64,000 bases of DNA from Streptosporangium becharense (GTDB lineage: Bacteria; Actinomycetota; Actinomycetes; Streptosporangiales; Streptosporangiaceae): NCBI RefSeq assembly GCF_014204985.1, contig NZ_JACHMP010000001.1, positions 4,960,001 through 5,024,000 of the forward strand, given 5' to 3'. Of the stretch, positions 14,437 through 31,762 are shown piece by piece. The notes under the pieces were generated by a model. That model saw nothing but the letters and a program-made list of their open reading frames with translations. It did no database searches and was not told the origin of the DNA. The stretch's first letter is position 1. Each line of letters opens with the position of its first letter. A program made the translations under genes and the position numbers.

Positions 14437-16668
14437 CTACTCGTACACCATCGGACTCGCCTCCAGCGCGTGGTGGGCGACGACGGTGACGTCGACGCCC
14501 GGCCGGGAGGCGAGCGCGGCCATCACCCGCCGGTGGACCATCGCCTTGCGCAGCGGCGGCATGTCGCGGAGGAGAGTCTCCCTGATCATGTCGTGTGCGA
14601 AGGACATCCGGTCACCGCGCGGGACCACCAGCCCGGCTCGGGCGGCCCGGTCCAGCAGGTCGTACGTCTCCACCCCGCTTATCTCGGCGACGAGGCCGGG
14701 ATCGAAGTCCCGGCCGACCACCGCGGCCGTGACCAGCGTCTGCCCGGCTCCCGGCCCGAGGTCGGTCAGACACTGGCGGATCAGATCGGCCACCGCGTCG
14801 GGCACCGTGCCCGCGTCCCGTCCCTGTGCGAGCAGCCGGGCGCTCTCCCGGACGAAGAACGGGTTGCCCCCGGTGCGCTCGGCCAGCCACCGGATCGTGC
14901 ACTCGTCCGCCTCCACCCCCGCGTCCGCCACGATGGCCCGGACAGCGGGCAGGCAGACCCCGGTGAGGCGCAGCCGGAGCAGGTTGTAACGGGCGAGCCG
15001 GCCCAGCAACTTCTCCGCCGCGCAGCCGGACACGCATCCCTCCGTGACGGCGATGTCGCGGAACGCGACGACCAGTGTGAGAGGGACGCTCCGGGCCAGG
15101 CCGTCGGTGAGCATGACCATGTCCCCGAGCAGTTCGAGCGAGGCCGGGTCCGCCCAGTGCAGGTCGTCCAGGATGATCGTCAGGGGCCGGTCTCGCGCCG
15201 CCGTGGCGAGCCAGCGTGAGACGGCCCAGCTCCGGCCGAGCCGGGCCGCCCCGGTGGCGGACGCGGTGCTCCCGTCGGGGCCGTCGGGCGTCTCGATGTC
15301 GGAGAGGCCGGCCAGAACCAGTCCGTCCGGGGGCGGGCAGGTCGATCTGAGCGTGCGCAGCGCCTGGAGCCACGGCCACAGCGGCGGTGTCCTGTCGCTG
15401 TCGTGGCAGCGTCCCCACAGCACCAGGTGGCCGAGACCGGCGCAGTGCTCGCCGAACGTCTCCAGCAGCAGGGTCTTGCCGATGCCCGCCTCACCGCTCA
15501 CGGCGGCCACGGCCGTGCCGTTCCCGGCCGCCCGCGCCGGAAGCGTCGCCAGTTCCGCGAGCTGCTGTTCCCGGCCGTACAGGGGCCGCCGCGGCGGACG
15601 CGGGCTCGCGGCCGGGGCCTTTCCGGTGCCGGCCGCGATGCGGGCCGCGGCGGACGGGAAGCCGGTCGTGACACCGGGTACGGCACCGGTCCCGTGCGTG
15701 GCGCCGCTCACGGGTGCAGCGCCGCTCCCGGGTACGGCACCGGTTCTGGTCGCGGCGCCGCTCACGGGTGCAGCGCCGGTGCCGACACCGGCGTCGGAGG
15801 TACCTCCTGCGGGGTTGCGCACCGGGTTGTCCAGGAGGTCGCGCACCGGTTCGGTGGCGGAAAGCCTCACCGGGTCGGCCGCGGCCTCCGTCTGGGGGAC
15901 GACGGTCGGCGAGTCGACGCCGCGGACGATGTCGTCCTCCAACCTCTTCAGCGCGGCGCCGGGAGGCAGGCCGGACCGGCCGGTGAGTCGGCTCTCCGCC
16001 CGGCGGAGCACCTCCAGAGCGTCGGCCTTCCGCCCGGCCCGATGCAACGCCAGGGCCAGCAGATACCACAACCCCTCACGCCGAGGGTGCGCGATCACCT
16101 CGGCCTCCAGGTCGGCGACGGCGGTCAGCGGCCGGCCCAGCTCCAGCAACGCCCGAGCGCGCCGTTCGATCGCCGTCAGACGCAGCTCGTGCAGACGGCC
16201 GACCTCCGCCGCCGCCCACGGCTCGTCGGCGAACTCGCTGTAGGGCTGCCCGCGCCACAGCCCCAGTGCCTCGTCCAGGCAGGGGAGTGTGCCGTCGGGC
16301 GACCGGAACGCGGAACGGGTGACCAGTTCGGTGAAGCGCGCGACGTCCACGTCCGCCGCGGCGAGCAGGTAGCCGGGCGGCCGGGCGATGATCACTCGGG
16401 ACGGTGCTCGCGGCGCGCGGCCGGGCTCGACGGCCCGGCGCAGATGAGAGATGTACGACTGCAGCGTGGCCAGCGCGCTGGCCGGGGGCGTACTCCCGTA
16501 GACGTCGTCGATCAGCACGTCCACCGGGACGACCGTCCCGCGCGACAGGATCAGCCTGGCCAGTACCGCTCGCTGGCGCGGACCACCGAGATCGACGGGA
16601 ATGCCGTCGTCGTCGGCCTCCACCGGGCCGAGAACCCGGAACTGCACTTCGTCCCCCTGACTCGGCAC
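14437..16668 (-). CDS. SARP-type regulator with AAA ATPase domain (AfsR-like)
   Basis: 743 aa. The N-terminal winged helix (FRVLGPVEADDDGIPVDLGG, RQRAVLARLIL) and bacterial transcriptional activator domain (ARFTELVTRS to about residue 250) define a SARP activator. A repetitive Gly/Ala/Val/Pro linker (GAAPVSGA and GTGAVPG units) leads to an AAA/NTPase region with Walker A VSGEAGIGKT and Walker B ILDDLHWADP. Such regulators usually activate antibiotic or developmental genes. The protein stops soon after HHALEASPMVYE, where relatives normally continue into TPR repeats, so it looks C-terminally short. GTG at 16668 is the longest start; a GTG seven codons in is also possible. The lanthipeptide cluster begins 0.9 kb upstream on the opposite strand and is a plausible target. 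Confidence 0.85.
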   Translation of the reverse strand: MPSQGDEVQFRVLGPVEADDDGIPVDLGGPRQRAVLARLILSRGTVVPVDVLIDDVYGSTPPASALATLQSYISHLRRAVEPGRAPRAPSRVIIARPPGYLLAAADVDVARFTELVTRSAFRSPDGTLPCLDEALGLWRGQPYSEFADEPWAAAEVGRLHELRLTAIERRARALLELGRPLTAVADLEAEVIAHPRREGLWYLLALALHRAGRKADALEVLRRAESRLTGRSGLPPGAALKRLEDDIVRGVDSPTVVPQTEAAADPVRLSATEPVRDLLDNPVRNPAGGTSDAGVGTGAAPVSGAATRTGAVPGSGAAPVSGATHGTGAVPGVTTGFPSAAARIAAGTGKAPAASPRPPRRPLYGREQQLAELATLPARAAGNGTAVAAVSGEAGIGKTLLLETFGEHCAGLGHLVLWGRCHDSDRTPPLWPWLQALRTLRSTCPPPDGLVLAGLSDIETPDGPDGSTASATGAARLGRSWAVSRWLATAARDRPLTIILDDLHWADPASLELLGDMVMLTDGLARSVPLTLVVAFRDIAVTEGCVSGCAAEKLLGRLARYNLLRLRLTGVCLPAVRAIVADAGVEADECTIRWLAERTGGNPFFVRESARLLAQGRDAGTVPDAVADLIRQCLTDLGPGAGQTLVTAAVVGRDFDPGLVAEISGVETYDLLDRAARAGLVVPRGDRMSFAHDMIRETLLRDMPPLRKAMVHRRVMAALASRPGVDVTVVAHHALEASPMVYE

Positions 16669-17573: not shown

Positions 17574-20417
17574 ATGGGAAAGACCACGGGCGGAGAAACG
17601 CGTTCCGGTGCGGCGGACAACCTGCTGGAGGACGTCGTCAGGGCGATTCTGGAGCGCGAGGCGAAGCAGGCCGCCGGTGTGGCGGATTTCGGCGAGGGCG
17701 ATTCCGGTGCGGTGGGTTCCGGTTCCGGTGAGGTTTCCTCCCAAGTGGATGCCGGTGCGAGCTGGCAGATTCGTCCCAGTGTTCCGTGGACGTACGTGAC
17801 GCCGGTGGATGCGGCCGCCCGTGACCAGGGATGGAAACTGCACCTTTCGGCGACGCCGCTGTCGGCCCCGGTGGTGCTGGCACGGGCGGCCGAGGTGCTG
17901 GCCCGGCACCGGTGTCCGTTCAAGTTCGCCGCCACCCTGGAAGAACTCAGCAAGCTGGTCTCCCGTGAGCAGGACCGGGGCTCGGTGGGCAAGTTCATCA
18001 CCGTCTACCCGCCCGACGACGAGACCGCGGTGGCGCTGGCCGAGGAGCTGCATCAGGCCACCTACGGGCTGTCCGGCCCGCCGATCCTGTCCGACCGCGT
18101 CTACAAGCCCGGCAGCCTGGTGCACTACCGGTTCGGGGTGTTCTCCGCCCCCAGCGAACTGGACAACGACGGCTCCTACGCCTCGCGGCTGACCGCGCCG
18201 GACGGCACCCGGGTGGTCGACGAGCGCAACGCCTGGTACTCCCCGCCGGCCTGGGCACCCTGCCCGTTCGAGTCGGGGCAGGCCCCGGCGCGCACGGTCG
18301 CGCCGCAGGCGGTGCTGTTGGCCGACCGGTTCGTGGTGCGCCGGGCGATCCGGCACGGCGCCAAGGGCGGGGTGTTCCTGGCCGAGGACCGCACGACCGG
18401 CACCGAGGTGATCGTCAAGCGGGCACGGCCGCATCTGGGTGCTTCCTTCGACGGGCGGGACGAGCAGGATCTGCTGCGTCATGAGGCGCGGATGCTGGAG
18501 CTGTTCGGGCCGCTGGGGGTGACCGCGGCCAAGGTGGCGCTGTTCGAGGCCGACGACAACCTGTTTCTGGCGCAGGAACACGTTCCGGGGATGGTGCTGA
18601 GCGGGTGGGTCGGTGAGCGACGCTTCTCGGTCACGGGTGAGGAGTGGCGTGACCTGGTGCTGCGCGTGGCGCGGCGGTTGGTCGCGCTGGTTGCCTCGGT
18701 GCACGCGCAGGGGTATGTGCTGCGGGATCTGACGCCGAACAACGTCATGGTCACCGATGACGGCGACTGCCGGTTGATCGACCTGGAGATGGCCGCGGTG
18801 CCCGGTGCGCTGGTCCGCCGGGCTTTCACCCTGGGTTACGCCCCGCCGGAGCAGGTTCATGCCGCCATGCACGCGCCCGCGCCGGCGGTGACCGCTGACC
18901 TGTACGCGTTGGGAGGGACGTTGTTCTTCCTGGCCACGGGGTGTCAGCCGGCGCTGGCCGCCGACCGGCCGGTCGGAGCACGCTCCCGGAATTCCCGGCT
19001 GGAAACGCTTGTGAACGTCGCGGCTGCTGGAGACGTTGTCTCCAGCGCACTGATCCCGGCCATTCTGGGCCTAATGCAGGAGGATCCCACGCGGCGCTGG
19101 GACCTGGGCCAGGTAGAGCTTTTCCTGGACCGGATGGTCGTCGGTTTTCCTTCTGTCGTCGCGGACGGTTGGCTGCCGGGGGTGGGCGAGCAGGACCGCC
19201 TGCTGCACGACGGGCTGACCCACGTGTTGCGGACGATGTCACCGGCCGAGGTCGCCGACCCCGCACCGCAGGGCGCCCTCTGGCCGACCTCGGGGTTCGG
19301 CGCGACTGCGGATCCGTGCGCGGTGCAGTACGGCGCGGCCGGGGTGCTCACCCTGCTCGCCTCAGTGGTGGAGGCGTCGAATGAGACGTCCGGCATGCCG
19401 GATCTGCGTGCTGACCTGGTGGCGGGGTTGCGGGACGCGGCGGACTGGACGGTGCGGCGGATGGCCGGTGAGCACCGGCCCTCGCCGGGGCTGTACTTCG
19501 GCCGGGCCGGCATCGCCTGGGCCCTGCACGAGGCAGGCCGCGCACTCGACGACCCGGCGCTGCGCACCGCGGGAACCGATCTGGCGCTGGGCCTGCCCAT
19601 CTCCTGGCCCAACCCGGACGTGTGCCACGGCCTGGCCGGCACCGGGCTGGCGCTGCTGCACTTCTGGCACGCCACCGGCGAGGCCCGCTTCCGCGATCGG
19701 GCCGGTGACTGCGCCGACGCCCTGCTCAAGGCCGCCCAGCACACCTCCGACGGGGTGCTGTGGCCGATCCCGAAGGACTTCGACTCCGCGCTGGCCGGCG
19801 TGACGCACTACGGCTTCGCCCACGGTGTCGCCGGGATCGGCGCCTTCCTGCTGGCCGCGGGCACCGCGCTGGGCCGCGACGACTGCCTGGAGACCGCGCT
19901 GGCCGCCGGCGACACCCTGCTGGCCGCCGCCGAGTACCGGGGCGAGGCCGCGTTCTGGTCGGACGGGCCGTCGAGCAAGGGCGGGCTGACGCACTGGTGC
20001 AGCGGCTCGTCCGGGGTGGGCACGTTCCTGGTCCGGCTGTATGCGGCCACCGGGGATTCCCGGTTCCGGGAGGCGGCCGAGGCTGCCGCGGCGGCGGTGT
20101 ACACCCGAAGGCTGAGCGCGGGCACCGCGGCCTGCCACGGCCTGGCCGGGGACGGGCAGTTCCTGTTGGATGCGGCCGACCTGCTGGGCGAACCGGTCTA
20201 CCACGAGTGGGCCGCCGACCTGGCGGCGCTGCTGTGGGCGCGGGCCGCGCTGCGCGACGGGCTGCTGGTGGTGCCCGACGAGAACGGTACCGAGGTGAGC
20301 GTCGGCTGGAACACCGGCCTGGCCGGGGTGCTGGACTTCCTGCACCGGCTGCGCCACGGCGGGCCACGCCCCTGGACGGCCGACGACATCGCTCTTCGCC
20401 CCGCGGGGGCGGTGTGA
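17574..20417 (+). CDS. lanL: Class IV-like lanthipeptide synthetase (lyase-kinase-cyclase)
   Basis: 947-aa fused enzyme. The N-terminal phospho-Ser/Thr lyase region has GKFITVYPPDDETAVALAEE and YKPGSLVHYRFGVF. The middle Ser/Thr-kinase-like domain has VIVKRARPHLG and the catalytic loop VLRDLTPNNVMV (about residue 385) with the metal-binding LIDLE. The C-terminal LanC-like cyclase keeps the zinc ligands Cys809 (HWCSGSSG) and Cys854/His855 (AACHGLAGDG). Retained zinc ligands argue for class IV (LanL) rather than class III (LanKC). It would phosphorylate precursor Ser/Thr, eliminate to Dha/Dhb and add Cys thiols. I chose ATG 17574 because GGAAAGGGAA lies directly before it; the frame is open to 17460. 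It overlaps the protease gene by one base. Confidence 0.88.
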   Translation: MGKTTGGETRSGAADNLLEDVVRAILEREAKQAAGVADFGEGDSGAVGSGSGEVSSQVDAGASWQIRPSVPWTYVTPVDAAARDQGWKLHLSATPLSAPVVLARAAEVLARHRCPFKFAATLEELSKLVSREQDRGSVGKFITVYPPDDETAVALAEELHQATYGLSGPPILSDRVYKPGSLVHYRFGVFSAPSELDNDGSYASRLTAPDGTRVVDERNAWYSPPAWAPCPFESGQAPARTVAPQAVLLADRFVVRRAIRHGAKGGVFLAEDRTTGTEVIVKRARPHLGASFDGRDEQDLLRHEARMLELFGPLGVTAAKVALFEADDNLFLAQEHVPGMVLSGWVGERRFSVTGEEWRDLVLRVARRLVALVASVHAQGYVLRDLTPNNVMVTDDGDCRLIDLEMAAVPGALVRRAFTLGYAPPEQVHAAMHAPAPAVTADLYALGGTLFFLATGCQPALAADRPVGARSRNSRLETLVNVAAAGDVVSSALIPAILGLMQEDPTRRWDLGQVELFLDRMVVGFPSVVADGWLPGVGEQDRLLHDGLTHVLRTMSPAEVADPAPQGALWPTSGFGATADPCAVQYGAAGVLTLLASVVEASNETSGMPDLRADLVAGLRDAADWTVRRMAGEHRPSPGLYFGRAGIAWALHEAGRALDDPALRTAGTDLALGLPISWPNPDVCHGLAGTGLALLHFWHATGEARFRDRAGDCADALLKAAQHTSDGVLWPIPKDFDSALAGVTHYGFAHGVAGIGAFLLAAGTALGRDDCLETALAAGDTLLAAAEYRGEAAFWSDGPSSKGGLTHWCSGSSGVGTFLVRLYAATGDSRFREAAEAAAAAVYTRRLSAGTAACHGLAGDGQFLLDAADLLGEPVYHEWAADLAALLWARAALRDGLLVVPDENGTEVSVGWNTGLAGVLDFLHRLRHGGPRPWTADDIALRPAGAV

Positions 20418-22225
20418 TGACCGCCGGCACGATGAGCCCGGTCCACGCCACGGCCGGGGAGGAGCGCCTTCCGTACATCCGGCGGGTCAACGTCCGCTTC
20501 TCCGGCCGCGGCCGGTACGCGGCCTGCCTGGCCGGCGACGGCCACCGCCTCACCCCGGAGGTGTGGGACCTCACCGGTGACCGGCCGCGGCCCCGGACGC
20601 TGCGCACCCGCGCCGGGGAGACCTTGCAGACCCTGCCGGTGCCCACCGATGACGGCCACCTCCTGCTGTGCCGCTCCGGTGCCGACGGCGTGCACCGGCT
20701 CGTGCTGGTCGTCCCGGCCGCGAACCGCGACGAGACATCCGAAGAATACGAACTGCCCGCCTTCGACGAGGTCGGCGTCAGGCTGACGCCCGGACCGGCC
20801 GAAGGAACGGCCGCCCTGGCCTTCGTGGAGAGAGCCGACGGGAACACGACGGTGTGGCGCCTGTCCGGGCGGGTCGAACCGCCCGAGCAGGTCGTCGAGC
20901 TGCCGGGGTTCGTCTCCGGCGGCGCCTGGCTCGACGACACCGGTGAGCGCCTCGTCCTGTCACCCAGGAATGCGGAACTCGGCACCCTGGTCTTGAACCT
21001 GACGAGCGGTGCCGTCACCCCGCTGGCCGGGCCGGCCGGTGACGAGCACTTCCTGCTGGCCGCGTCCGCCGGGACGCTGCTGTTGGCCGCGCACCGCGAC
21101 GGCGCCTACCGGCTCGGTGTGCGCCACCGTGACGATGCCGGGGCGTCCACCGTCTTCCCCGACCGGTTGAACACGATCGAGGGCACGGTGACCCCGCTGG
21201 CGCTGGACCCGGCCGGAGAACGCTTGGCGCTGGCCGTCACCCACGGCGCTCGCTCCCACCTGCTCGTCCACGACCTGGCCGACGACACCATCGCTGAGGT
21301 CGACTTCCCGACCGGGATGCTGCATCCGGCAGCGCGCTGGACCGCCACCGGCCTGCACCTGGTCCACACGACGCCGGAGCATCCGCCGGGACTGGTGACG
21401 GTGGCGAACTCGGTCTTCTCCGTGCCCGAGTGGAGCCGGGCGCGGTGGGAGTCGGCCCGCATCCGGGACTACGAGGGGCCGGGCGGGAGTATCGAAGCCG
21501 TCGTGTACGGCGACCCCGTGACCAGCCCACAGGTGGTGCTGGCGTTGCACGGTGGTCCAGAGGCCGCCTGGCAGTTCGGGTTCGACCCGCTGTTCCAGCG
21601 TCTGGCCGCGGCCGGCATCGCGGTGGTGGCGCCCAACCAGCGCGGCAGCACCGGCTACGGCGCCGCCCACCGCGACGCGATCCGCGGCGCCTGGGGCGGC
21701 CCGGACCTGGCCGACGTCCTGCATCTGGGCCGCACCCTGGCCGCGACGCGCGGGCCGGACCGGGAGTGTCCAGCCCTGTACGGGATCAGCTACGGGGCCC
21801 ACCTGGCGCTGCTGGCCGCCGCGGCCCAGCCCGATCTGTGGTCCCGCGCCGCGGTGGTCGCCCCGTTCCTGTCCGGGCCGGCGTTGTACGCCGACGGGCC
21901 GCAGTCGGTGCGCAACCTGATCGACCGGCTCGGCGGACGGGAGGAGGTCGGCGACGACCTCGGCCCCCGCGACCTGCTGGCCCTGGCCCCCCGGATGCGG
22001 CTGCCGCTGCTGATCGTCCACGGCGAACGGGACCTGATCATCCCGGTCACCCACTCCCGCCGCCTGCACGACCGGCTGCGCGAGAGCGGGCACCGCGACA
22101 GCACCGGCCTGACCTATCTGGAGGTACCCGGCGGCGGCCACGACCCTCTGGCCGACACTGGAGGGCATCTCCTCCTCGACTGTGTCACGGACTTCCTGCA
22201 CACCGGATCACCACCCGGTCTCTGA
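20417..22225 (+). CDS. S9 prolyl-oligopeptidase-family protease, likely leader peptidase
   Basis: 602 aa. The N-terminal half reads as a beta-propeller of irregular WD-like strands. The C-terminal alpha/beta-hydrolase domain has the nucleophile Ser458 in GISYGAHL, Asp539 in HGERDLIIP and His575 in GGGHDP, with an intact oxyanion segment LALHGGPEAAW. Prolyl oligopeptidases process leaders in some class III lanthipeptide systems (FlaP of flavipeptin). The start codon shares a base with the synthetase stop, so the two are translationally coupled. No signal peptide is visible, so it acts in the cytosol before export. Each precursor in the cluster contains exactly one proline, at residue 12, which fits a Pro-specific cut. 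Confidence 0.85.
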   Translation: MTAGTMSPVHATAGEERLPYIRRVNVRFSGRGRYAACLAGDGHRLTPEVWDLTGDRPRPRTLRTRAGETLQTLPVPTDDGHLLLCRSGADGVHRLVLVVPAANRDETSEEYELPAFDEVGVRLTPGPAEGTAALAFVERADGNTTVWRLSGRVEPPEQVVELPGFVSGGAWLDDTGERLVLSPRNAELGTLVLNLTSGAVTPLAGPAGDEHFLLAASAGTLLLAAHRDGAYRLGVRHRDDAGASTVFPDRLNTIEGTVTPLALDPAGERLALAVTHGARSHLLVHDLADDTIAEVDFPTGMLHPAARWTATGLHLVHTTPEHPPGLVTVANSVFSVPEWSRARWESARIRDYEGPGGSIEAVVYGDPVTSPQVVLALHGGPEAAWQFGFDPLFQRLAAAGIAVVAPNQRGSTGYGAAHRDAIRGAWGGPDLADVLHLGRTLAATRGPDRECPALYGISYGAHLALLAAAAQPDLWSRAAVVAPFLSGPALYADGPQSVRNLIDRLGGREEVGDDLGPRDLLALAPRMRLPLLIVHGERDLIIPVTHSRRLHDRLRESGHRDSTGLTYLEVPGGGHDPLADTGGHLLLDCVTDFLHTGSPPGL

Positions 22226-22399
22226 CCCGGCCCGGTTCCGACCCGCGCTCAGCGAAGGCGCGGGGCCTACAAGCCCGGCCGGCATCACATGGCATCGCGC
22301 TGACACGGAGAGCGACGCCGGAGGCCGGCCGTTCATGGCGGGGCCGCCCACAAGGGGGCGGGTCACCCCGTCGATCATCACAAAGGAAAGGAAATCGCC

Positions 22400-22519
22400 A
22401 TGGAGCTCGACCTCAACGCTCTGGACATGCTTCCCGCTGAGGAGGCTCAGCTGAAGTACTGCGAGTTCACCTGTGGCGAGACCACGAAGAACTGCCGTCG
22501 CAGCACCACCCAGTTCTAA
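22400..22519 (+). CDS. lanA1: Lanthipeptide precursor 1
   Basis: 39-aa peptide, too short for ordinary gene calls. ATG with the ribosome site AAAGGAAAGGAAA about 7 nt upstream. The leader begins MELDLNALDMLPAEE, a hydrophobic L-x-L/D pattern like class III/IV recognition helices. The C-terminal part has Cys21, Cys25 and Cys32 plus Thr24, Thr28, Thr29, Ser35, Thr36 and Thr37. Pro12 is the only proline. No Ser or Thr occurs before Cys21. Shares the MELD..LDMLPAE leader with two other peptides in the cluster, which is strong support that it is a real gene. Confidence 0.9.
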   Translation: MELDLNALDMLPAEEAQLKYCEFTCGETTKNCRRSTTQF

Positions 22520-22574
22520 GAGCCGCACGGGGCCGGGGGTGTGAGAGCACCCGGGGCCTACCGCATGCGGTGAG

Positions 22575-22611
22575 GTGTCGCGCGGCCCGTCCTCATCGGG
22601 CCGCGGGACAC
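22575..22611 (+). terminator. Hairpin after precursor 1 (terminator or mRNA stabiliser)
   Basis: Inverted repeat of 15 bp with one mismatch (GTGTCGCGCGGCCCG / CGGGCCGCGGGACAC) around the loop TCCTCAT. It could end or attenuate transcription so that precursor mRNA exceeds the downstream transporter mRNA, or protect the short message. No U-tract follows. Confidence 0.65.
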
Positions 22612-22741
22612 CGTTCCCGGTCGGCGTCCGGCTCTCTCCTCGGTCATCGGGGTGGGATGCCGGAGGCCGGCCGTTCATGGCGGGGCCGCCCACAAGGGGG
22701 CGGGTCACCCCGTCGATCATCACAAAGGAAAGGAAATCGCC

Positions 22742-22861
22742 ATGGAGCTCGACCTCAACGCTCTGGACATGCTTCCCGCTGAGGAGGCTCAGCTGAAGTA
22801 CTGCGAGTTCACCTGTGGCGAGTTCACGAGGAACTGCCGTCGCAGCACCACCCAGTTCTAG
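22742..22861 (+). CDS. lanA2: Lanthipeptide precursor 2
   Basis: 39-aa paralogue of precursor 1, lying exactly 342 bp downstream in the second repeat unit. The leader and most of the core are identical. The only differences are Phe28 for Thr28 and Arg30 for Lys30 (GEFTRNC against GETTKNC). It keeps Cys21, Cys25, Cys32, Thr24, Thr29, Ser35, Thr36, Thr37 and Pro12. Losing Thr28 leaves Thr29 as the only residue able to form an ordinary ring with Cys32. That the nucleotide copies are close but the two amino-acid changes sit in the ring region suggests core diversification after duplication. Confidence 0.9.
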   Translation: MELDLNALDMLPAEEAQLKYCEFTCGEFTRNCRRSTTQF

Positions 22862-22916
22862 GCGCCGCGGCGGAGCCGGGGTGTGAGAGCACCCGGGTCC
22901 CACCGCATGCGGTGAG

Positions 22917-22953
22917 GTGTCCCGCGGCCCGTCCTCATCGGGCCGCGGGACAC
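22917..22953 (+). terminator. Perfect 15-bp hairpin after precursor 2
   Basis: GTGTCCCGCGGCCCG / CGGGCCGCGGGACAC with loop TCCTCAT, in the second repeat unit exactly 342 bp after its counterpart, here without mismatch. Positioned between the precursor and the ABC exporter gene, it is suited to reduce read-through. Confidence 0.7.
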
Positions 22954-23067
22954 CGTTCCCGGTCGGCGTCCGGCTCTCTCCTCGGTCATCGGGGTGGGAC
23001 GCCGGAGGCCGGCCGTTCATGACGGGGCCGCCCACACGGGGCGGACTCGTGCCGGGAGAGGACAACA

Positions 23068-25020
23068 ATGTCAGACCGTGTGCCACATGTGCCGAGGGAG
23101 CAGGTGACGCACCGGAACAGTGACCGTCTTCTGGGCTCGGTGGCGCGTGGTGCGTGGATGCCGTTGACGGTGTCGGCGGTGTGCGCTCTGGCGACGGCCG
23201 TGGCCGCGCTGGCTCTGCCGGCCGCGCTGGCCGCCGCCGTGGACGCGGTTCTGACCGGCCGGGGAGCGCAGCGCGCCGCGACCGATCTGGCCCTGGTTCT
23301 CGCCGTCGCCGTCTGTGCCGGCATCGCGGACGGGATCGCCGAGGCGTCGGCCACCGCGTCGGCCACGGCGGCCCTGCGCCTGCGGCTGGTTTCCCACGTC
23401 CTCAGGCTCGACGCCGCGGGTGCCCGCCGCTTCCCGGCCGGGGAGCTGACCAACCGCCTGGTGAGCAACACCGTGACCGCCGGATACGTACCGGTGACGC
23501 TGCTCGGTATGGCGATCGAGCTGCTCACCTCCGTCGGCGGCGTCGTCGCGCTGTTCGTGATCGATCTGTGGGTGGGCCTGGCCTTCCTGGCGGGGGTGCC
23601 CGTCGGGCTCGTCGCCATGCGCGTGTTCGTCACCCGTGCCGCGGATCTGTACGGCCGCTACCAGGACGCGCAGGGCCACCTGGCGGCGCGGCTGACCGAG
23701 GTCCTGACCGGGATCCGCACCGTGCGGGCCTCGGGCACCGCCGGCCGCGAGATCACCCGGGTGCTGGCTCCGCTGCCGGAGCTGTCAGAGACCGGGCACG
23801 CCCTGTGGCGGGCACAGGCCCGCAGTGTGTGGCAGATCGCGTTGCTGTTGTCGTTGATCGAGGTGGTCGTGCTCGCCGTGACCGGGCTCGGGGTGGCCGA
23901 CGGCCGTCTGGCGCCGGGGCAGCTGCTGGCCGCGGCCGGTTACACCACGCTGGGGTTGGCCCTGCTCACGCAGACCGATGTGCTGATGGAGGTGACCTAC
24001 GCCCGTTCGGCGGCCCGGCGCGTCTGGGAGGTGCTGGCCCTGCCTGCTCCGATCCCCGGCACCCGCCCGCTGCCCGACGGCCCTGGTGTGCTCCGGTTCC
24101 GTGGTGTCACCGTGGTCCGCGAAGAGGGCCCGGTACTGGACGGTGTCGATGTGGAGATCCCCGCGGGAGCGCTGGCCGCGGTGGTGGGGCGTTCCGGTGC
24201 GGGCAAGAGCACGCTGGCGTCGCTGGCCGGCCGGTTGATCGACCCCGACCGGGGGCAGGTGCTGCTCGACGGTCTGCCGCTGACCGAGATCGATCCCGCC
24301 GTGCTGCGGGAGGCGGTCGCCTACGCCTTCGAGCGCCCGGTGCTGCTGGGCGAGGACCTGGCCACGGCCATCGCCTACGGGCTACCGGCTGCCGGCCCCG
24401 ACACCGTCCGGGGGGCGGCGCGCGCCGCGCACATCGACGATGTGATCTGCCGTCTTCCGCACGGGTATGCCACCGCACCTGACGCCGCCCCCTTGTCAGG
24501 GGGAGAGCTCCAGCGGTTGGGCCTGGCGCGTGCCCTGGTGCGGCGGGCCCGGGTGACCGTGCTGGACGACGCCACCTCCAGCCTCGACACCGCCACCGAG
24601 GCCCAGGTGACCCGCACCCTGACCGAGGGGATGCGCGGGCGGACCCGGCTGGTGATCGCGCACCGGGTCACCACCGCGGCCCGCGCCGATCTGGTGATCT
24701 GGCTGGAGGACGGGCGTGTCCGCGCCATCGGTCCCCACCGGGAGCTGTGGGCGGACCCGGCCTACCGCGCGCTGTTCGCCGCGTCCGACGCCTCCGGCGC
24801 CATCGCCGTTCCCGAAGCGGCGTCCTCCAACGACGCCGTCTCCGGTGCCGTTCCCGCTTCCGGTCCGGCCGGTCCTGCTCCGGCCGGTGCCGACCCGGCC
24901 CGTAACGGCCCGACCGGCATCGGTCCGGTCGCCGAAAGGGCGGCCGAGCCCCGAACCGGTGGTGACACGGGCGTATCCGAGACACCCGAGACGGAGGACA
25001 CGTGCCCCGCCCGCCCCTGA
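23068..25020 (+). CDS. lanT1: Lanthipeptide ABC exporter, subunit 1
   Basis: 650-aa half-transporter. About six membrane helices lie in residues 30-320, with TVRASGTAGREITRV as the coupling region. The nucleotide-binding domain has Walker A GRSGAGKSTLASLAG, signature LSGGELQRLGLARAL and Walker B VTVLDDATSSLD. The usual catalytic Glu after Walker B is Asp here (LDDATSS), which often marks a degenerate ATPase site in heterodimeric exporters. A disordered Pro/Ala/Thr tail of about 60 residues ends the protein. There is no C39 peptidase domain, so leader removal is left to the S9 protease. It overlaps the next gene by 19 nt, and the two probably form one heterodimer. Confidence 0.87.
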   Translation: MSDRVPHVPREQVTHRNSDRLLGSVARGAWMPLTVSAVCALATAVAALALPAALAAAVDAVLTGRGAQRAATDLALVLAVAVCAGIADGIAEASATASATAALRLRLVSHVLRLDAAGARRFPAGELTNRLVSNTVTAGYVPVTLLGMAIELLTSVGGVVALFVIDLWVGLAFLAGVPVGLVAMRVFVTRAADLYGRYQDAQGHLAARLTEVLTGIRTVRASGTAGREITRVLAPLPELSETGHALWRAQARSVWQIALLLSLIEVVVLAVTGLGVADGRLAPGQLLAAAGYTTLGLALLTQTDVLMEVTYARSAARRVWEVLALPAPIPGTRPLPDGPGVLRFRGVTVVREEGPVLDGVDVEIPAGALAAVVGRSGAGKSTLASLAGRLIDPDRGQVLLDGLPLTEIDPAVLREAVAYAFERPVLLGEDLATAIAYGLPAAGPDTVRGAARAAHIDDVICRLPHGYATAPDAAPLSGGELQRLGLARALVRRARVTVLDDATSSLDTATEAQVTRTLTEGMRGRTRLVIAHRVTTAARADLVIWLEDGRVRAIGPHRELWADPAYRALFAASDASGAIAVPEAASSNDAVSGAVPASGPAGPAPAGADPARNGPTGIGPVAERAAEPRTGGDTGVSETPETEDTCPARP

Positions 25021-26957
25021 CCCGCCCGGTGCCCGCCGCCGAACCCGCCTCCACCGCGACGGCGATGGCGGAGAGCCCGCCTGGCCGTCATGCCGGCGCC
25101 GGGGCGGGCCGTCTGCTGCGGGCGTTGCTGCGTCCGCGGCGACGCGCCTTGACCCTGGTCGCGGTCTGGTCGGTGGTCGAGGGGATTCCGGGGTTGCTGT
25201 CGGGGTTGCTCATCGCTGCGGCGGCCGACCGGGGTTTCCTGGCCGGACGGCCGGGGGTGGGTCTGGCCTGGCTCGGGGGCCTCGGATTCGCGTTGCTGGT
25301 GAAGGCCGTTGCCACCCGGGTGATGTTCCCGTATCTGGCCGCAGTGGTTGAGCCGTTGCGGGACGACCTGGTCCGTGCGGTGGTGACCACGACGGTGACC
25401 CGCGCCGCCGACGACACCGCGGCCCCGGATGCGGCTGCGGTGACCCGGTTGACCACGCAGGTGAGCCTGGTGCGCAACCTGGTGGTCGCGCTGTTGCGCA
25501 GCAGCCGTCAGCTGGGCGTCTCGCTGGTGGCGGCGCTGGCCGGGTTGCTGGTGTTGTCGCCGCCGGCCGCGGTGATCGTGGCAGTGCCGGTGCTGGTGGC
25601 GTTGGGGATGTTCGCCTGGTTGTTGCGGCATCTCGTCGCGCGGGAGCGCGTTTTGGTGCTGGCCGATGAGACGTTGACCGTGCGGGCTAGTCCGGTTCTG
25701 GCCGGGTTGCGGGATGTGGCGGCGTGCGGTGCGGATGAGCAGGCGTTCACCACGATGCGGGTCGCAGTGGCGGCGCAGGCGGCGGCGACCCGGGCGGTGG
25801 CGTGGGCCGGGACGGGGCGACGGCTGGTGGTGGCGATCGGTGGGCATCTGCCGATGGTGGTGTTGTTGCTGGCAGCTCCGTCGCTGACCGGTGGCGGTCA
25901 TCTGAGCGCCGGGGAGATCGTGGGGGCGATGACGTATCTGGTGACCGGGCTGACCCCGGCGCTGGGTGCGCTCACCAGCGGTGTCGGCACCTGGGGGGTG
26001 GAACTCGCGGTCACCCTGCGCCGCCTGGCCGAGACCATCGCCCTCCCCACCGCATCCGCCTCCGTCTCTTCTCCGGTGACCGCCGTGCCCCGCCCGATCA
26101 CGGCCGGGGACGGTCACGAGCTGCGCGCCGACCGGCTGAGCTTCGCCTACGCCCCCCAGGCCGCCCCGGTCGTGCACGAGCTGACCCTCACCATCCCCGA
26201 AGGCGAACACGTGGCCGTGGTCGGCCCCAGCGGCATCGGCAAGTCCACCCTGTCGTTGCTGCTGACCGGCCTGCGGCGTCCCATCGCGGGCGAGGTGCGG
26301 CTCGGCGGCGTCCCGCTGGAGGCGATCCCCGAGCGCGAGCTGCGGTCGAAGGTCGCGCTGGTGCCGCAGGAGGCGTACATCTTCGCCGGAACGGTCCGGG
26401 AGAACCTCGCCTACCTCTGCCCGGAGACCGTCGCAGACACCACAGGGACCACAGGCGCCACAGGGACCGCAGGGACCGCAGGGACCGCAGGGACCGCCGA
26501 TGGTACGACGGCCGACGGCGCCACGGTGGCCACCGCCCTCGACGCGCGGTTGCGCGCCGCCGCCGACGCGGTCGGCGCCGCCGCCCTAGTCAACCGGCTC
26601 GGCGGGCTCGACGCGACGATCGACGACCCCGCCGCCCTGTCGGCCGGCGAACGGCAACTGCTCGCCCTGGCCCGGGTGCACGCCTCACCCGCCCGCGTCG
26701 TGATCCTGGACGAGGCCACCTGCCATCTCGACCCGGCCGCCGAGGCCCGCGCCGAGACCGCCTTCGCCACCCGCGAGGGCACCCTCATCGTGATCGCCCA
26801 CCGCATCAGCTCCGCCCGTAGAGCTCACCGCGTCCTGCTCATGGACGGCGCCACCGCCCTCACCGGCACCCACGACGACCTGGTCACCCGGTCGGTCCTC
26901 TACGCCGACCTGGTCGGCCACTGGCAGGACCACGACCACCCGGTGACCAGGAACTGA
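25002..26957 (+). CDS. lanT2: Lanthipeptide ABC exporter, subunit 2
   Basis: 651-aa half-transporter and likely partner of the preceding product. The membrane domain spans roughly residues 35-330. Walker A is GPSGIGKSTLSLLL, Q-loop VPQEAYIFAG, signature LSAGERQLLALARV and Walker B VVILDEATCHLD with an intact catalytic Glu. Together with the LDD version in its partner this suggests one consensus and one degenerate ATP site. Between the Q-loop and the signature the domain carries a Thr/Gly/Ala insertion encoded by a 9-bp tandem repeat (26443-26496). GTG start at 25002 overlaps the upstream gene; ATG 25065 is a possible alternative. Confidence 0.87.
   Translation: MPRPPLTRPVPAAEPASTATAMAESPPGRHAGAGAGRLLRALLRPRRRALTLVAVWSVVEGIPGLLSGLLIAAAADRGFLAGRPGVGLAWLGGLGFALLVKAVATRVMFPYLAAVVEPLRDDLVRAVVTTTVTRAADDTAAPDAAAVTRLTTQVSLVRNLVVALLRSSRQLGVSLVAALAGLLVLSPPAAVIVAVPVLVALGMFAWLLRHLVARERVLVLADETLTVRASPVLAGLRDVAACGADEQAFTTMRVAVAAQAAATRAVAWAGTGRRLVVAIGGHLPMVVLLLAAPSLTGGGHLSAGEIVGAMTYLVTGLTPALGALTSGVGTWGVELAVTLRRLAETIALPTASASVSSPVTAVPRPITAGDGHELRADRLSFAYAPQAAPVVHELTLTIPEGEHVAVVGPSGIGKSTLSLLLTGLRRPIAGEVRLGGVPLEAIPERELRSKVALVPQEAYIFAGTVRENLAYLCPETVADTTGTTGATGTAGTAGTAGTADGTTADGATVATALDARLRAAADAVGAAALVNRLGGLDATIDDPAALSAGERQLLALARVHASPARVVILDEATCHLDPAAEARAETAFATREGTLIVIAHRISSARRAHRVLLMDGATALTGTHDDLVTRSVLYADLVGHWQDHDHPVTRN
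26443..26496 (+). repeat. 9-bp in-frame tandem repeat inside the exporter ATPase domain
   Basis: Six units of CAGGGACCG or close variants encode a run of TGT/TGA/AGT triplets after ETVADT. The last four units are identical. The array lies in frame between the Q-loop and signature motifs. Confidence 0.9.
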
Positions 26958-27058
26958 CCGCGACGGGCGGAGGGCCCAGCGCCCCGCCGCCCGTCGCGGC
27001 CGACAACCGGCTGGCCGTCATCGAGGACGGTCTTGCCACGACCAAGAGAGGAAACACG

Positions 27059-27172
27059 ATGGAACTCGACATCGCCACCCTGGACATGCTGCCGGCCGAG
27101 CGGGAGACCAGGCGGGCCATCTGCATGGTCACCTGCAGCTCGACTCTCAACCAGCGCGTCACCGAGGCCTGA
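27059..27172 (+). CDS. lanA3: Lanthipeptide precursor 3 (divergent)
   Basis: 37-aa peptide with the ribosome site AGAGAGGAAA before the ATG. The leader MELDIATLDMLPAERE shares MELD, LDMLPAE and the lone Pro12 with precursors 1 and 2. The core differs: Cys22 and Cys26 with Thr25, Ser27, Ser28, Thr29 and Thr35, and no third Cys. The C-x-x-T-C spacing (CMVTC) is the same as in the first two peptides (CEFTC). It lies 101 nt after the second ABC gene and before a strong terminator, so it closes the cluster. Not part of the 342-bp repeat, hence an older paralogue. Confidence 0.85.
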   Translation: MELDIATLDMLPAERETRRAICMVTCSSTLNQRVTEA

Positions 27173-27362: not shown

Positions 27363-27392
27363 GGCAGGGGCGCCGTCAGCGGCGCCCCTGCC
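27363..27392 (+). terminator. Terminator closing the lanthipeptide cluster
   Basis: Perfect 12-bp inverted repeat GGCAGGGGCGCC / GGCGCCCCTGCC with loop GTCAGC, followed by CATGTTTC. It lies between precursor 3 and the convergent SppA-type gene. Confidence 0.75.
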
Positions 27393-27447: not shown

Positions 27448-29169
27448 TCAGCGGATCATCCACTGGCCCGGCAGCATGAGCGGCCCGTACGACGGCAGGC
27501 CGAGTTCGGCGGCGAGGTGGGCGACGGGGCCCCACGCCTCCAGCCGGACCTGGGCCAGGGCGGCGGCCTTGTCCTCGCTGGACTCCGCGGGACGCAGGCG
27601 CTCCAGCGGGTTCAGCTTCGGGTAGACCCGCACCGGGGCGTCGGCGGCCAGGCCCGCCTTCTTACGTGCCAGGGCCAGGGCGTCCTCCAGGCCGCCCAGC
27701 TCGTCGACCAGGCCGCTGTCGCAGGCGTCGGCGCCGGTCCAGACCCGCCCTCTGGCCAGTTCGTGAGCGCGCTCGCGGGACAGGCCGCGTCCCTCGGCGA
27801 CCTTGTTCACGAAGTCGTCGTAGACCCGGTCGAGCCAGGCGTTGACCCGTGCCCACTGGGCCTCCGAGAAGGCCTGGGTGGAGGAGAACATCCCGGCGTT
27901 GGCGCCCTCTCCGACGGTCTCCGAGGACACGCCCATCTTCTCCAGCAGTCCGCCGATGACCGCCTTGCCGCCGAACACGCCGATGGATCCGGTGAGCGTG
28001 CCCGGCTGGGCCACGATCAGGTCGGCGGCCATGGAGACCATGTAGCCGCCGGAGGCGGCCAGGTCACCCATCGAGATCACGATGGGCTTGCCCGCCTTGC
28101 GGGTCAGCACGACCTCGCGCCAGATGGCGTCGGAGGCCACGTACGAGCCGCCGGGGCTGTCGACCCGGAAGACGACGGCCTTGACGTTGTCGTCGTGGCG
28201 GGCCGCGCGCAGCGCCGCGCAGATCGTGTCGGAGCCCATCGCACCGCCACCGCCCAGCGGGCTGCGTCCGCTGCGGCCGAGCCGGATCGCACCGCTGCCG
28301 CGGACCAGCGCGACGGTCTGCCCACCCGGGTGCGGCAGCTTCCTGGCGATCGACTCCTTGGCGTAACGGCCGACGTACAGCAGCCTGGCGTCGTCGCCCA
28401 CGGACCGCTTGAGCTCGTCGTACACCTCGTCGCGGTAGGCCATCCGGTCGACGAGCCCGGCTTCGAGGGCCTCGGCACCGATGAACGGCCCCCGGTCGAT
28501 GAGTTCGCGGACCTTGGCCGGGTCGATGCCGCGTCCCTCCGCGATGCCCGCGACGACCTGCTCGGTGACCGACTCGGTGATGCGGCTCATCGACTCGCGG
28601 TGCGCCTCGGTCATGTGGTCCTGGGTGAAGGTGTTGGCCGCGGTCTTGTACTCGTGCCGCTGGCCGAGCTGGTACTCCACGCCGAGTTTGCCGAGCGCGC
28701 CGCGCAGGAAACGCTGCTCCATGGCCACGCCGGTCAGCCCGACGTCACCCGACGGCTGCAGGTAGACCCGCTCGAACGCGGTCGCCAGGTAGTAGGGGAC
28801 GGTGCCGGCGCCGAACTCGCCGAAGGTCTCGGCGAACGCGACCGTCGTCTTGCCCGCGGCCCGGAACAGGCTCACGGCCTGGCGCAACTCCTGGACGACC
28901 GCCAGTCCCAGCGGCTGGGTGCCGATCTTGACGATGAGCGCCTTGACGCGGTCGTCCTTGCGGGCGCGCTTGAGCCCGGACAGCACGTCGCTCAGGCTCG
29001 TCTTGCGCATCGCCATGATGGCACCCAGCGGGTCCGCCGGGGGACCTTCGGTGAGGCCCTCGGTGAGGTCGAGTTCAAGGACCAGTGGAGCGGTGCGCCG
29101 CTGCCGGAACCGGTCGACGGTGTCGATGATCACCTTGGTCGCGTCCATGCCCCTCACCCTAAGCGACAC
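27448..29169 (-). CDS. sppA: Signal peptide peptidase SppA-type serine protease (67K form)
   Basis: 573 aa, the long tandem-domain protease IV form that degrades leftover signal peptides or membrane-associated peptides. Two crotonase-like halves are present. The general-base Lys175 sits in RHEYKTAANTF in the first half, and the nucleophile Ser373 in GDLAASGGYMVSM in the second, as in E. coli SppA where the dyad spans the halves. Unlike E. coli SppA, no N-terminal membrane helix is visible, so attachment to the membrane would be peripheral. ATG at 29148 (MDATKV) is an alternative start. The position next to a secreted subtilase may be chance. Confidence 0.88.
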   Translation of the reverse strand: MSLRVRGMDATKVIIDTVDRFRQRRTAPLVLELDLTEGLTEGPPADPLGAIMAMRKTSLSDVLSGLKRARKDDRVKALIVKIGTQPLGLAVVQELRQAVSLFRAAGKTTVAFAETFGEFGAGTVPYYLATAFERVYLQPSGDVGLTGVAMEQRFLRGALGKLGVEYQLGQRHEYKTAANTFTQDHMTEAHRESMSRITESVTEQVVAGIAEGRGIDPAKVRELIDRGPFIGAEALEAGLVDRMAYRDEVYDELKRSVGDDARLLYVGRYAKESIARKLPHPGGQTVALVRGSGAIRLGRSGRSPLGGGGAMGSDTICAALRAARHDDNVKAVVFRVDSPGGSYVASDAIWREVVLTRKAGKPIVISMGDLAASGGYMVSMAADLIVAQPGTLTGSIGVFGGKAVIGGLLEKMGVSSETVGEGANAGMFSSTQAFSEAQWARVNAWLDRVYDDFVNKVAEGRGLSRERAHELARGRVWTGADACDSGLVDELGGLEDALALARKKAGLAADAPVRVYPKLNPLERLRPAESSEDKAAALAQVRLEAWGPVAHLAAELGLPSYGPLMLPGQWMIR

Positions 29170-29178
29170 ATTCCGGGT

Positions 29179-31398
29179 TCATGCCGCGCGTTTGGCGTTC
29201 ACCTTCTTTTTCAGGAGAGAGGTATACGTAGCGGAAGTCGTGCCCTTCAGACGCTTCTGCTCCGCCCGGGTGAGGACCTGCTTGAGCGTGGCGTCCTTGC
29301 CGACCTTCGCGGTGAAGTTGACCCCGCCGTGGGCCCAGTTCAGCCAGGCGGCCAGCAGTTCGCTGTCCAGCTTGGCCCGCGCGGTCTTCTTGGCCGGCTT
29401 GAGCACCCGGTAGGCGGTGCCGAGGGTGGAGGCGCGAGTGAGCTCGGGGAAGACCTTGCTCGCCTTGCCCACCATGCCCAGGTAGCAGCTGAGCGTCGCG
29501 TCCGGAAGCGTGCCCTTGTCCCGGGCGACCTCCGCCGCCCACTGGGCCGCGGTGAGTGTCTTCGGCGACGTGCCGCGCGTGCACACCGCCGCCGGTGGTG
29601 CCGCCGCCGGCGGCGGGCTCGCGGTCACGGTCACGGTGACGGTGACCGTGGGCAGCGGGACCGGCGTGGGCTCCGGGTCGGTCGGCGTGGCGGACGGGGA
29701 GGGGCCCGTGCTCGGCTCTGGGCTCGGGTCGTCGGCGGGGTCGTCCGAAGGATCCTCTGCGGGGTCGTCGGCCGGGTCGTCCGGGGTGGATCCGTCGCCC
29801 GGGGCCGGGTTGTGGGTGACTCCCGGCGACGGGTCGGCGCCCAGCATCGCCGCGTTCAGGTCCAGGCGCGGGGTCGTCACGCCGGCGTAGGTGATCGGGC
29901 GGCCCGCAGCCTTGAGCTTGTCGACCAGCGCGTCCGGAGACTCGGGGAACTTCTCCGCCATCAGCGCCAGGGCACCGGCGACGTGCGGGGCCGCCATCGA
30001 GGTGCCGCTGTAGACCTGGTGACCGCCGCCCGGCGCCGCGGAGTCGATCTCAAGCCCGGGGGCGAACAGGTCGAGCGCGGAGCCGTGGTTGGACCAGGAG
30101 GGGACGGCGTCGTCGTCGCCCGTCGCGGCCACGGTCACCGAACCGGAGAGGCAGCCGGGCGCCCCGGCGGCGGCCACACCCTCGTTCCCGGCGGCGGCGA
30201 CGGCGGCCACGCCCTTGGCGCGCAGAGCCTCGATCCGCGCCTTCAGCTCCTCCAGCCCCGGCTCGGCGTCGCATGCCCCCTCGAAGAGGCCGCCGCCGAG
30301 GCTGAGGTTCACCGCGACGAGACCCGGCCGGCTGTCCTTGAGCTTCGCGACGTGGTCGAGGGCCTGGAGGAGGGAGGACTCGTAGGCCGTCAGGCACACG
30401 CCCCCTTCGTCCGCGCAGTCGTTGACGCGGCTGAAGACCTGGATCGCCACGATCTCCGCCTCGGGTGCGACGGCATGGGCGATGCCCGCCACGTGCGTGC
30501 CGTGATCACACAGGTTGACCCCGTTGTGGACGCAGGCGGGGGTCTCGGCGTCGGCGGAGCCGGGGCCCGTCGTCTTCCCCTCGGGGCACAGCGACTGCGC
30601 GCCGGAGTCCGTCGCGGAGAAACACGCCTCGTCCACGACCTTGCCGCCGAAGTCGGGGTGGTCGCCGTCGATCCCGGTGTCGATGATCGCGATCGTCCTG
30701 CCCCGTCCGCTGATCCCGGCGGCGTGCGCCTTGTCGGCGCCGACCACCTGCAGGCCGGAGGCCAGCGAGGCGGGGGAGAAGGTCCGGTCGCGCCGGATGG
30801 AGCGCACCCGGGGGTCCTCGGCCAGCTTGGCCAGGGACTCGCCGGTGGCCTCGACGACGATGAACGAGGTCTGCGGCGGGGCGGCGACGAGCTGCGCGTC
30901 GGGCAGCCGCTCCGCCTCCCCGGCCACCGGCGCCGCCTCCACGGGGTTGGCCAGCTCGACGATGACCCGGGCCCCGTCGTCGTCGGCGGCGAGCCCGGTC
31001 TCGAGCTTCGGCGCCGGCGGCGGGGTGGCGCCGTCCGCGGGCGGGTCCTGCGCGGGTGGGCTCGCCCCGTCGGCGGGCGGTGCCGCCCCATCGGCGGGCG
31101 GGTCCTGCGCGGACGCGCTCGCGTCGTCCGGCGGCGGGTTCTGCGCGGGTGGTGGCGCGCCGTCCGCGGGCACCGGTTGCTCCTGCCCCTGTGCCGGGGC
31201 GGGGGCCGGTCGCCCGGGGTTCCCCGCGTTCTCCGCCGGGGCGGTGGTCGGGCCCGGATCCGCGGTGGCGGGAGGAGCCGGCGCCGGGCTCGGGCTCGCG
31301 GTGACGGCGGGGAGAACGGGTGGCTCCTCGGCCAGGGCCGGTACGGCGGGAGCCATGGTGAAAGCGATCACCATGGCCGCGAGGGCTCGAAGTCGCAC
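29179..31398 (-). CDS. Secreted subtilisin-like serine protease (S8)
   Basis: 739 aa from the GTG at 31398, which has a GGAGGA site just upstream and gives a clean signal peptide (MRLRALAAMVIAFTMAP...ALA). The frame is open further to 31545. A Pro/Ala-rich stretch with repeated PPADGA units fills residues 30-130. An inhibitor_I9-like propeptide (RVIVELANPVE...TSFIVVEATGESLAKL) follows. The catalytic triad is Asp240 (IAIIDTGIDG), His299 (DHGTHVAG) and Ser467 (YSGTSMAAPH), with Asn405 as oxyanion residue. An acidic Asp/Pro repeat (DDPADDP) and a Pro/Thr/Val stretch lead to a basic C-terminal domain of about 130 residues that I do not recognise. It is probably a calcium-stabilised extracellular protease with a wall- or polymer-binding tail. 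Confidence 0.9.
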   Translation of the reverse strand: MRLRALAAMVIAFTMAPAVPALAEEPPVLPAVTASPSPAPAPPATADPGPTTAPAENAGNPGRPAPAPAQGQEQPVPADGAPPPAQNPPPDDASASAQDPPADGAAPPADGASPPAQDPPADGATPPPAPKLETGLAADDDGARVIVELANPVEAAPVAGEAERLPDAQLVAAPPQTSFIVVEATGESLAKLAEDPRVRSIRRDRTFSPASLASGLQVVGADKAHAAGISGRGRTIAIIDTGIDGDHPDFGGKVVDEACFSATDSGAQSLCPEGKTTGPGSADAETPACVHNGVNLCDHGTHVAGIAHAVAPEAEIVAIQVFSRVNDCADEGGVCLTAYESSLLQALDHVAKLKDSRPGLVAVNLSLGGGLFEGACDAEPGLEELKARIEALRAKGVAAVAAAGNEGVAAAGAPGCLSGSVTVAATGDDDAVPSWSNHGSALDLFAPGLEIDSAAPGGGHQVYSGTSMAAPHVAGALALMAEKFPESPDALVDKLKAAGRPITYAGVTTPRLDLNAAMLGADPSPGVTHNPAPGDGSTPDDPADDPAEDPSDDPADDPSPEPSTGPSPSATPTDPEPTPVPLPTVTVTVTVTASPPPAAAPPAAVCTRGTSPKTLTAAQWAAEVARDKGTLPDATLSCYLGMVGKASKVFPELTRASTLGTAYRVLKPAKKTARAKLDSELLAAWLNWAHGGVNFTAKVGKDATLKQVLTRAEQKRLKGTTSATYTSLLKKKVNAKRAA

Positions 31399-31762
31399 AC
31401 GTCCTCCGGGGAGATCAAAACGGGCGATTCGGAGTCTAGGTAGCCATATGGTCTCGGTGAAGACCTCGTCGTGAATTCGGAGGATCTTCGCAGAAAATGC
31501 TCGACCCCCCGCGGCGTGACGCACACGGAGGGCCGAGTGGGGCAAATATTACTCGAGGCCGCCGAAAGCGCGGTGGCGAACCCCCGTCGACGGCGGTGCC
31601 GGTCTGCCGGAGGGCCACCCGGGGTGGCGAGCCCTGTCGGCGGCGGTGCCGGTCTCCCGGTGAGTCACCCGCCGGGGAGACCGGAATCCGCGCTGCTGGA
31701 ACGTTCCCACCAGTGGGCGGACAGACTCCGAGGCAGGATCATGACCCTCTAGGATCAGTTTC
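31399..31762. other. Divergent promoter region with a short direct repeat
   Basis: Holds the 5' regions of the divergent subtilase and small secreted-protein genes. The part near 31400-31560 is less GC-rich. An imperfect repeat of CGGCGGTGCCGGTCTCCCGG-like sequence occurs at about 31589 and 31640. No gene-like frame. Confidence 0.5.

Follow-up and report, generated by a model that had tools for sequence, protein, structure and literature searches.

A run of seven genes on the forward strand of Streptosporangium becharense, at positions 17574-27172 of a 64,000-nucleotide stretch of contig NZ_JACHMP010000001.1 (the window), raises three questions: to which class its lanthionine synthetase belongs, in which direction the rings of the product close, and how the leader is taken off. 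The genes stand in the order lanL, S9 peptidase, precursor 1, precursor 2, ATP-binding cassette (ABC) exporter 1, ABC exporter 2 and precursor 3. The synthetase is almost certainly a class IV LanL, and it is moderately likely, judging from the sequences, that the whole is a class IV operon of the ALQxL family whose rings each join a Cys to a dehydroamino partner on its C-terminal side. The genes are:

17574-20417, + strand: lanL, class IV lanthionine synthetase of 947 amino acid residues with lyase, kinase and zinc cyclase parts, from its NF038150 score, domains and zinc ligands
20417-22225, + strand: S9 peptidase of 602 residues, proposed leader peptidase, with a Peptidase_S9 domain
22400-22519, + strand: precursor 1, 39 residues, MELDLNALDMLPAEEAQLKY / CEFTCGETTKNCRRSTTQF (presumed break before the first Cys), NF038157 29.1 bits
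22742-22861, + strand: precursor 2, 39 residues, as precursor 1 but with CEFTCGEFTRNCRRSTTQF, a tandem duplicate of precursor 1, NF038157 29.0 bits
23068-25020, + strand: ABC half-exporter 1, with ABC_membrane and ABC_tran domains
25002-26957, + strand: ABC half-exporter 2, with an ABC_tran domain; its homologues come after exporter 1 in related loci
27059-27172, + strand: precursor 3, 37 residues, MELDIATLDMLPAERETRRAI / CMVTCSSTLNQRVTEA, NF038157 18.4 bits, leader model 37.3 bits

The start codon of the S9 peptidase gene overlaps the lanL stop codon, and the two exporter genes overlap by 19 nt. Every element named in a first-pass annotation of this DNA (synthetase, S9 protease, two ABC half-exporters and three precursors) was recovered here on the + strand, as was the common leader that it had read as MELD..LDMLPAE (MELDLNALDMLPAE in two precursors, MELDIATLDMLPAE in the third). 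Chance is excluded for the identity of the cluster because of the family scores, namely 1086.6 bits for NF038150, 29.1, 29.0 and 18.4 for NF038157 and 73.5 for Peptidase_S9. The gene order was found again in related genomes.

The lanthionine synthetase

The score of the lanL product against the class IV model NF038150 lies well above the cut-off of 650 bits, and its 444.6 bits against the class III model NF038151 fall short of the 575 that mark a class III LanKC. The single chain carries RamC_N (residues 59-239), Pkinase (256-511) and LANC_like (581-934) domains, and its predicted structure has a mean predicted local distance difference test (pLDDT) score of 90.1. C809, C854 and H855, which from their motif we take to be the zinc ligands, align with the same residues in 29/29 LanL and in 0/4 class III proteins; in an alignment of 36 LanL rows both cysteines are present in 36/36 and the histidine in at least 90%. 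In a tree of 39 synthetases the three class III rows split off at 100/100, with a program warning of one long class III branch (L016_III; L numbers denote fetched loci), and the window LanL sits, again at 100/100, in an 11-row clade all of whose loci carry S9, scored as present in fetched regions at more than 100 bits to the window peptidase. The class IV assignment of the first-pass annotation was thus borne out by score, zinc ligands and tree, none of which placed the enzyme firmly with class III, and the same three rule out a hybrid class III/IV synthetase.

It is hardly tenable that the enzyme is a class III LanKC with retained zinc ligands, giving labionin-type products. The three-domain layout is common to class III and IV and there is a 444.6-bit match to the class III model, but that match is under the class III cut-off and far under the enzyme's own class IV score, class III stands apart at 100/100 in the tree (one long branch being flagged), and a narrow regular expression for Ser-x-x-Ser..Cys precursors combined with a class III-type leader found none in the fetched loci. 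Class III synthetases are described as having no zinc ligands (PMC7268733; statements from the literature, here and below, rest on the available portions of the papers cited).

At the N-terminus of the window LanL (17574-17700), ahead of the lyase, a helix containing LLEDVVRAILERE is predicted at residues 13-33. A similar stretch occurs in about a dozen of the 36 rows of the LanL alignment, where some rows have lost this end to trimming.

Precursor peptides and core pattern

Precursors 1 and 2 exceed the cut-off of 19 bits for NF038157 (NCBIfam 'ALQxL family class IV lanthipeptide'), and precursor 3 (18.1-18.4 bits, the higher value being 0.6 bit short) looks like a member through the leader motif and core pattern that it has in common with them. 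The first-pass opinion that the peptides resemble no lantibiotic was therefore mistaken, a named family fitting two of them above its cut-off and the third just below. The model spans 17 positions, all in the leader, and its listing is silent on cores and on S9; a literature search by family name plus 'lanthipeptide' found no paper on the ALQxL family. Against a leader model precursor 3 scored 37.3 bits, being itself one of the nine leaders from which that model was built (four from this genome, two of those from the window). Matches were kept from 6 bits up, so that rows with the weakest matches may not represent genes, and rows were selected by leader, not by core. At least three precursors were found at each of the loci L013, L014, L073, L098 and L101; among class IV precursors overall, 83% have been reported to be the sole precursor of their cluster (PMC7268733).

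The cores differ almost wholly from operon to operon and have a common plan: a Cys, usually two to five residues, a Ser or Thr, and usually the next Cys at once, as in CWVT-CFVS-CNYS-CLVT-I (L013), CVIT-CFVS-CESS-CLIT-I (L098) and CGTEST-CSGT-CTNT-CKNS-CRIT-NR (L016). The main set comprised 50 rows, of which the over-long L099 was dropped and the other 49 were reduced to 39 cores non-redundant at 80% similarity. In these, 94/108 later Cys come immediately after a Ser/Thr (shuffle mean 30.4, standard deviation 4.3, a count reached in 0/2000 shuffles), and 82 of the 147 Cys have Ser/Thr at +3 (shuffle mean 38.1). Ser/Thr at -3 (15, shuffle mean 26.9) and at -4 (13, mean 25.1), the usual spacings of forward rings, are below expectation. 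Within the 29 non-redundant cores from loci with S9, 109/110 Cys are followed by a Ser/Thr, no nearer than +2, ahead of any further Cys; position +3 of the last Cys is Ser/Thr in 21/29 (tail-shuffle mean 7.8, 0/5000).

Nine held-out cores, each less than 80% similar to the first set and from the same bacterial family, add fresh sequences but no independent lineage. They were what remained of 42 rows after 33 had been left out, 31 for similarity to earlier or other rows and two from L130 that had no motif; one of these two, CAPYTCYYYTCGPNHTWV, follows the plan, its Ser/Thr standing at +4 or +5 instead of +3. Among the nine, 13/18 later Cys follow Ser/Thr (shuffle mean 4.7), Ser/Thr stands at +3 of 20/27 Cys (mean 6.6), and +3 of the last Cys is Ser/Thr in 8/9 (mean 1.9).

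The contact between Ser/Thr and the next Cys is at times broken, as in CVST-WL-CDWT-CYAT-FTS. In 38 joined cores 11 later Cys have no Ser/Thr before them; for these, Ser/Thr is found at +3 in 9/11 and at +2 to +6 in 11/11, and at -3 in three, -4 in four and -5 in two.

Direction of the rings

By homology, the LanL would bind the leader MELD..LDMLPAE, phosphorylate Ser and Thr of the core and eliminate the phosphate to give dehydroalanine (Dha) and dehydrobutyrine (Dhb), whereupon its zinc cyclase would add the Cys thiols to Dha and Dhb. With Cys N-terminal to its partner the result would be a string of small, non-overlapping Cys-x2-6-Ser/Thr rings, predicted as CEFT, CGET and CRRS in precursor 1 and as CMVT and CSST in precursor 3. 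Presumably in the cytosol, the S9 peptidase would cut at or near the first Cys and so take the leader off, and the two ABC half-transporters would export the product. We prefer this direction because Cys N-terminal to Dha or Dhb agrees with the Cys-x-x-Ser/Thr at the end of the cores and with the broken contacts. It is a direction known to LanL, since three of the four rings of venezuelin have Cys first (Cys34-Dhb39, Cys45-Dha49 and Cys32-Dhb43; PMC2843593).

Forward is the common direction of lanthipeptide rings. With the same enzymes, each Ser/Thr could skip the next Cys and pair forward with the one beyond it (i to i+5 in C-x-x-T repeats), the last Ser/Thr being left free and a Ser/Thr at the end of the leader serving the first Cys. 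Such a lattice could draw on the Ser/Thr found at -5 of the first Cys in 20/29 S9-locus cores and at -5 of 20/61 Cys within cores. It would leave unexplained why Ser/Thr stands at +3 after the last Cys (21/29, and 8/9 held out) and why the later Cys with broken contacts keep Ser/Thr at +3 in 9/11 and at -5 in only 2/11. Moreover, 8/29 S9-locus cores have no Ser/Thr anywhere from -2 to -6 relative to the first Cys, and the rings would interlock, one of them spanning the cut if the leader is cleaved before the first Cys. Forward pairing is, on this evidence, quite unlikely.

Several points nevertheless weigh against rings that all have Cys first. The 20/29 Ser/Thr at -5 of the first Cys are usable by the forward lattice, and the fourth venezuelin ring, Cys50-Dhb31, is itself forward (PMC2843593). 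The low count at -3 was not repeated in the hold-out (5, mean 4.2; at -4, 2, mean 4.0), which slightly lowered our confidence, and a strict C-x-x-T repeat by its own structure gives a low -3 count. Shuffle counts overstate certainty, since relatedness makes the cores non-independent. The statistic has no forward-ring positive control, because the same narrow pattern for class III precursors gave no candidates in the fetched loci. The held-out row L131, CGCACTLPSFITGVVVP, is off the pattern, as are the distant class IV precursors of L033 (CSCCSTF), L017 (CSCCCYE), L018 and L029. As to the rest of the operon, Pro before the first Cys has no significant link with S9 and is absent from the window precursors, and the exporter pair is missing from eight fetched regions that have both LanL and S9 (L010, L095, L096, L102, L135, L137, L138 and L140).

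Leader removal by the S9 peptidase

Peptidase_S9 was found in the second gene product at 73.5 bits (cut-off 22.6). S458, D539 and H575, presumably the catalytic Ser-Asp-His triad from their order in the motifs, are invariant in 25/25 homologues. Sequence and fold comparisons alike place the enzyme closest, among solved proteins, to acylaminoacyl peptidases and an S9 carboxypeptidase, not to classical prolyl oligopeptidase; the predicted model has a pLDDT of 85.1, falling below 50 at residues 379-383 and 409-427. The S9 gene directly follows lanL in all 11 loci of the window LanL's clade. A domain family scan (E 0.01) did not find a peptidase domain in either half-exporter, and at the same threshold ABC_membrane in half-exporter 2 was below detection. 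Because the exporters have no recognised peptidase domain, the cluster is read most simply if the linked S9 enzyme takes the leader off, and this enzyme is probably the leader peptidase.

It is unlikely that the peptides are matured by an unlinked protease while the S9 enzyme serves self-protection or turnover, in which case either ring direction would be possible. For this speak the leader of SflA, which is cut by an enzyme from outside its cluster (PMC10885120), the predicted fold closest to acylaminoacyl peptidases, the residue before the core, which is not invariant, the existence of relatives with no S9, and an S9 homologue elsewhere in this genome in a region with neither LanL nor a leader match. 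The position directly behind LanL in 11/11 clade loci, the three residues invariant in 25/25, the lack of a peptidase domain in the exporters and the class III precedent FlaP (PMC10885120) argue for the S9 enzyme as leader peptidase.

Pro directly before the first Cys (LWPC, LYPC, LRPC) was considered as a mark of S9 cleavage. It occurs in 18/29 S9-locus cores and 4/10 others (Fisher p 0.28), in none of the window precursors, and with mixed residues within some operons; it was set aside and stays a lead only.

The S9 homologue just mentioned (L145:8788-11229, about 4480.8-4483.2 kb of C1) has 813 residues, with 70% identity in the hydrolase part. No leader match was found in its 19-kb region, nor a LanL by genome search. 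Genes for a NaeI-type restriction endonuclease and for a C5 DNA methylase lie nearby.

Comparison with characterized systems

Venezuelin (VenA/VenL, Streptomyces venezuelae) was the first LanL product (PMC2843593). As in the window, its synthetase is a class IV LanL with lyase, kinase and zinc cyclase; it differs from the product proposed here in its overlapping rings and globular shape, and, in the portion of its report available, no protease is identified in its cluster (PMC2843593). The VenA-like precursors of fetched loci have a leader with an ..ALPE.. motif, a likeness to the window leader, whereas their cores (L023-L028, L030, L032, L034-L036) show by inspection no tiling of Cys-x-x-Ser/Thr. 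SflA is of class IV and, going by the title of its paper alone, has nonoverlapping rings, like the proposed product; its leader is taken off by an AplP-like enzyme whose gene lies outside the cluster, unlike what we propose (PMC10885120).

Flavipeptin (FlaA/FlaP) is a class III product that shares with the window an S9 protease, a prolyl oligopeptidase, encoded in the cluster, and FlaP cleaves the modified peptide within its leader, after Pro(-12) (PMC10885120). Its synthetase is of the class that has no zinc ligands (PMC7268733), whereas the window LanL has them. The window S9 enzyme also differs from FlaP in its fold, nearest to acylaminoacyl peptidases, and in that Pro precedes the first Cys in only 18/29 S9-locus cores.

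Distribution among genomes

The 7.8-Mb genome specifies seven lanthionine synthetases, four LanL and three class III LanKC. The LanL scores against NF038150, all over the cut-off, are 1086.6 (window), 1090.2, 1022.8 and 946.8 bits, and three of the four genes are followed by an S9 gene. In a class-wide sample at least 25 places in at least 21/394 genomes were over the class IV cut-off, counts that are lower bounds as at most two candidates were scored per genome. The regions around all 25, two of them from this genome, were examined, and S9 adjoins LanL in 11. Among 25 named loci found through the window LanL, by a scan with six short patterns that reaches close relatives only, five have S9: those of Sphaerimonospora mesophila, Nonomuraea zeae, Sphaerisporangium fuscum, Nonomuraea spiralis and Streptosporangiaceae bacterium NEAU-GS5. 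NF038157 was matched at E <=0.01 in 30/341 genomes of the window's family and in 8/394 of the class sample.

The pairing of an S9 protease with class IV, which had been called a hybrid feature in the first-pass annotation, is accordingly not a one-off, given the 11/25 places and a review that, in the portion available, links S9 proteases to both class III and class IV. S9 as a marker of single origin for one LanL clade was rejected, since seven changes are needed on the tree, at least four of them forced by well-supported branches.

In Planotetraspora sp. (L016, 5075-10910) one synthetase of class III and one of class IV lie back to back in opposite directions.

Tandem duplication, hairpins and neighbouring genes

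Precursors 1 and 2 together with their upstream DNA form a 342-bp tandem duplication, absent from the first-pass annotation. A third remnant of the duplicated unit, 52 bp long (22990-23041), lies ahead of exporter 1 at the same 342-bp spacing; the precursor gene family at 22306-23041 is caught mid-expansion. The corresponding features, with those found outside the genes, are:

22306-22605, + strand: copy 1 of the tandem duplication (partner 22648-22947, 94% identity over 300 bp, spacing 342 bp)
22574-22612, + strand: hairpin after precursor 1, possible attenuator (16-nt arms, 94% complementary; fold z -4.98)
22916-22954, + strand: hairpin after precursor 2, possible attenuator (16-nt perfect arms; fold z -6.84)
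27363-27392, + strand: terminator-like hairpin after precursor 3 (13-pair stem, then a T-rich tail; fold z -5.99)
14437-16668, - strand: SARP/AfsR-like regulator, divergent from and upstream of lanL (Trans_reg_C, BTAD and AAA_16 domains)

The hairpins 3' of precursors 1 and 2 would hold the mRNA of the precursors above the level of that of the exporters. The hairpin at 27363-27392 is the probable end of the operon; the region has seven terminator-like sites of this kind, with 2.3 expected. The SARP/AfsR-like regulator may be a member of the cluster. Just downstream, 27448-31545 on the - strand specifies an SppA-like S49 peptidase and a subtilase (S8), probably with no relation to the cluster.

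Significance

Class IV LanL, ALQxL precursors and S9 proteases near lanthipeptide genes are already known. No description of the S9-linked subfamily or of its core rule was found in the literature searched, which took in few subscription papers and no supplements. What sets the predicted product apart from venezuelin is the tandem, non-overlapping layout of its rings; the direction itself is already known for LanL. Characterized class IV products are few, a 2022 paper counting two before adding two (PMC9576775).

A broader proposal, on which we are evenly divided, is that of a class IV subfamily, mostly from Streptosporangiaceae, with hypervariable (Cys-x2-6-Ser/Thr)n cores of up to five units, rings that would all be reverse and non-overlapping, several precursors per operon in some strains, one tolerant LanL and a dedicated S9 peptidase that would free the product. 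A rule of ring direction for class IV is directly testable here with one enzyme and many natural cores. If the proposal is true, ring direction and placement would be predictable from sequence in this subfamily, and its LanL would lend itself to building small rings, one after another, into diverse cores. The gene-linked S9 peptidase would then account for leader removal in this branch of class IV.

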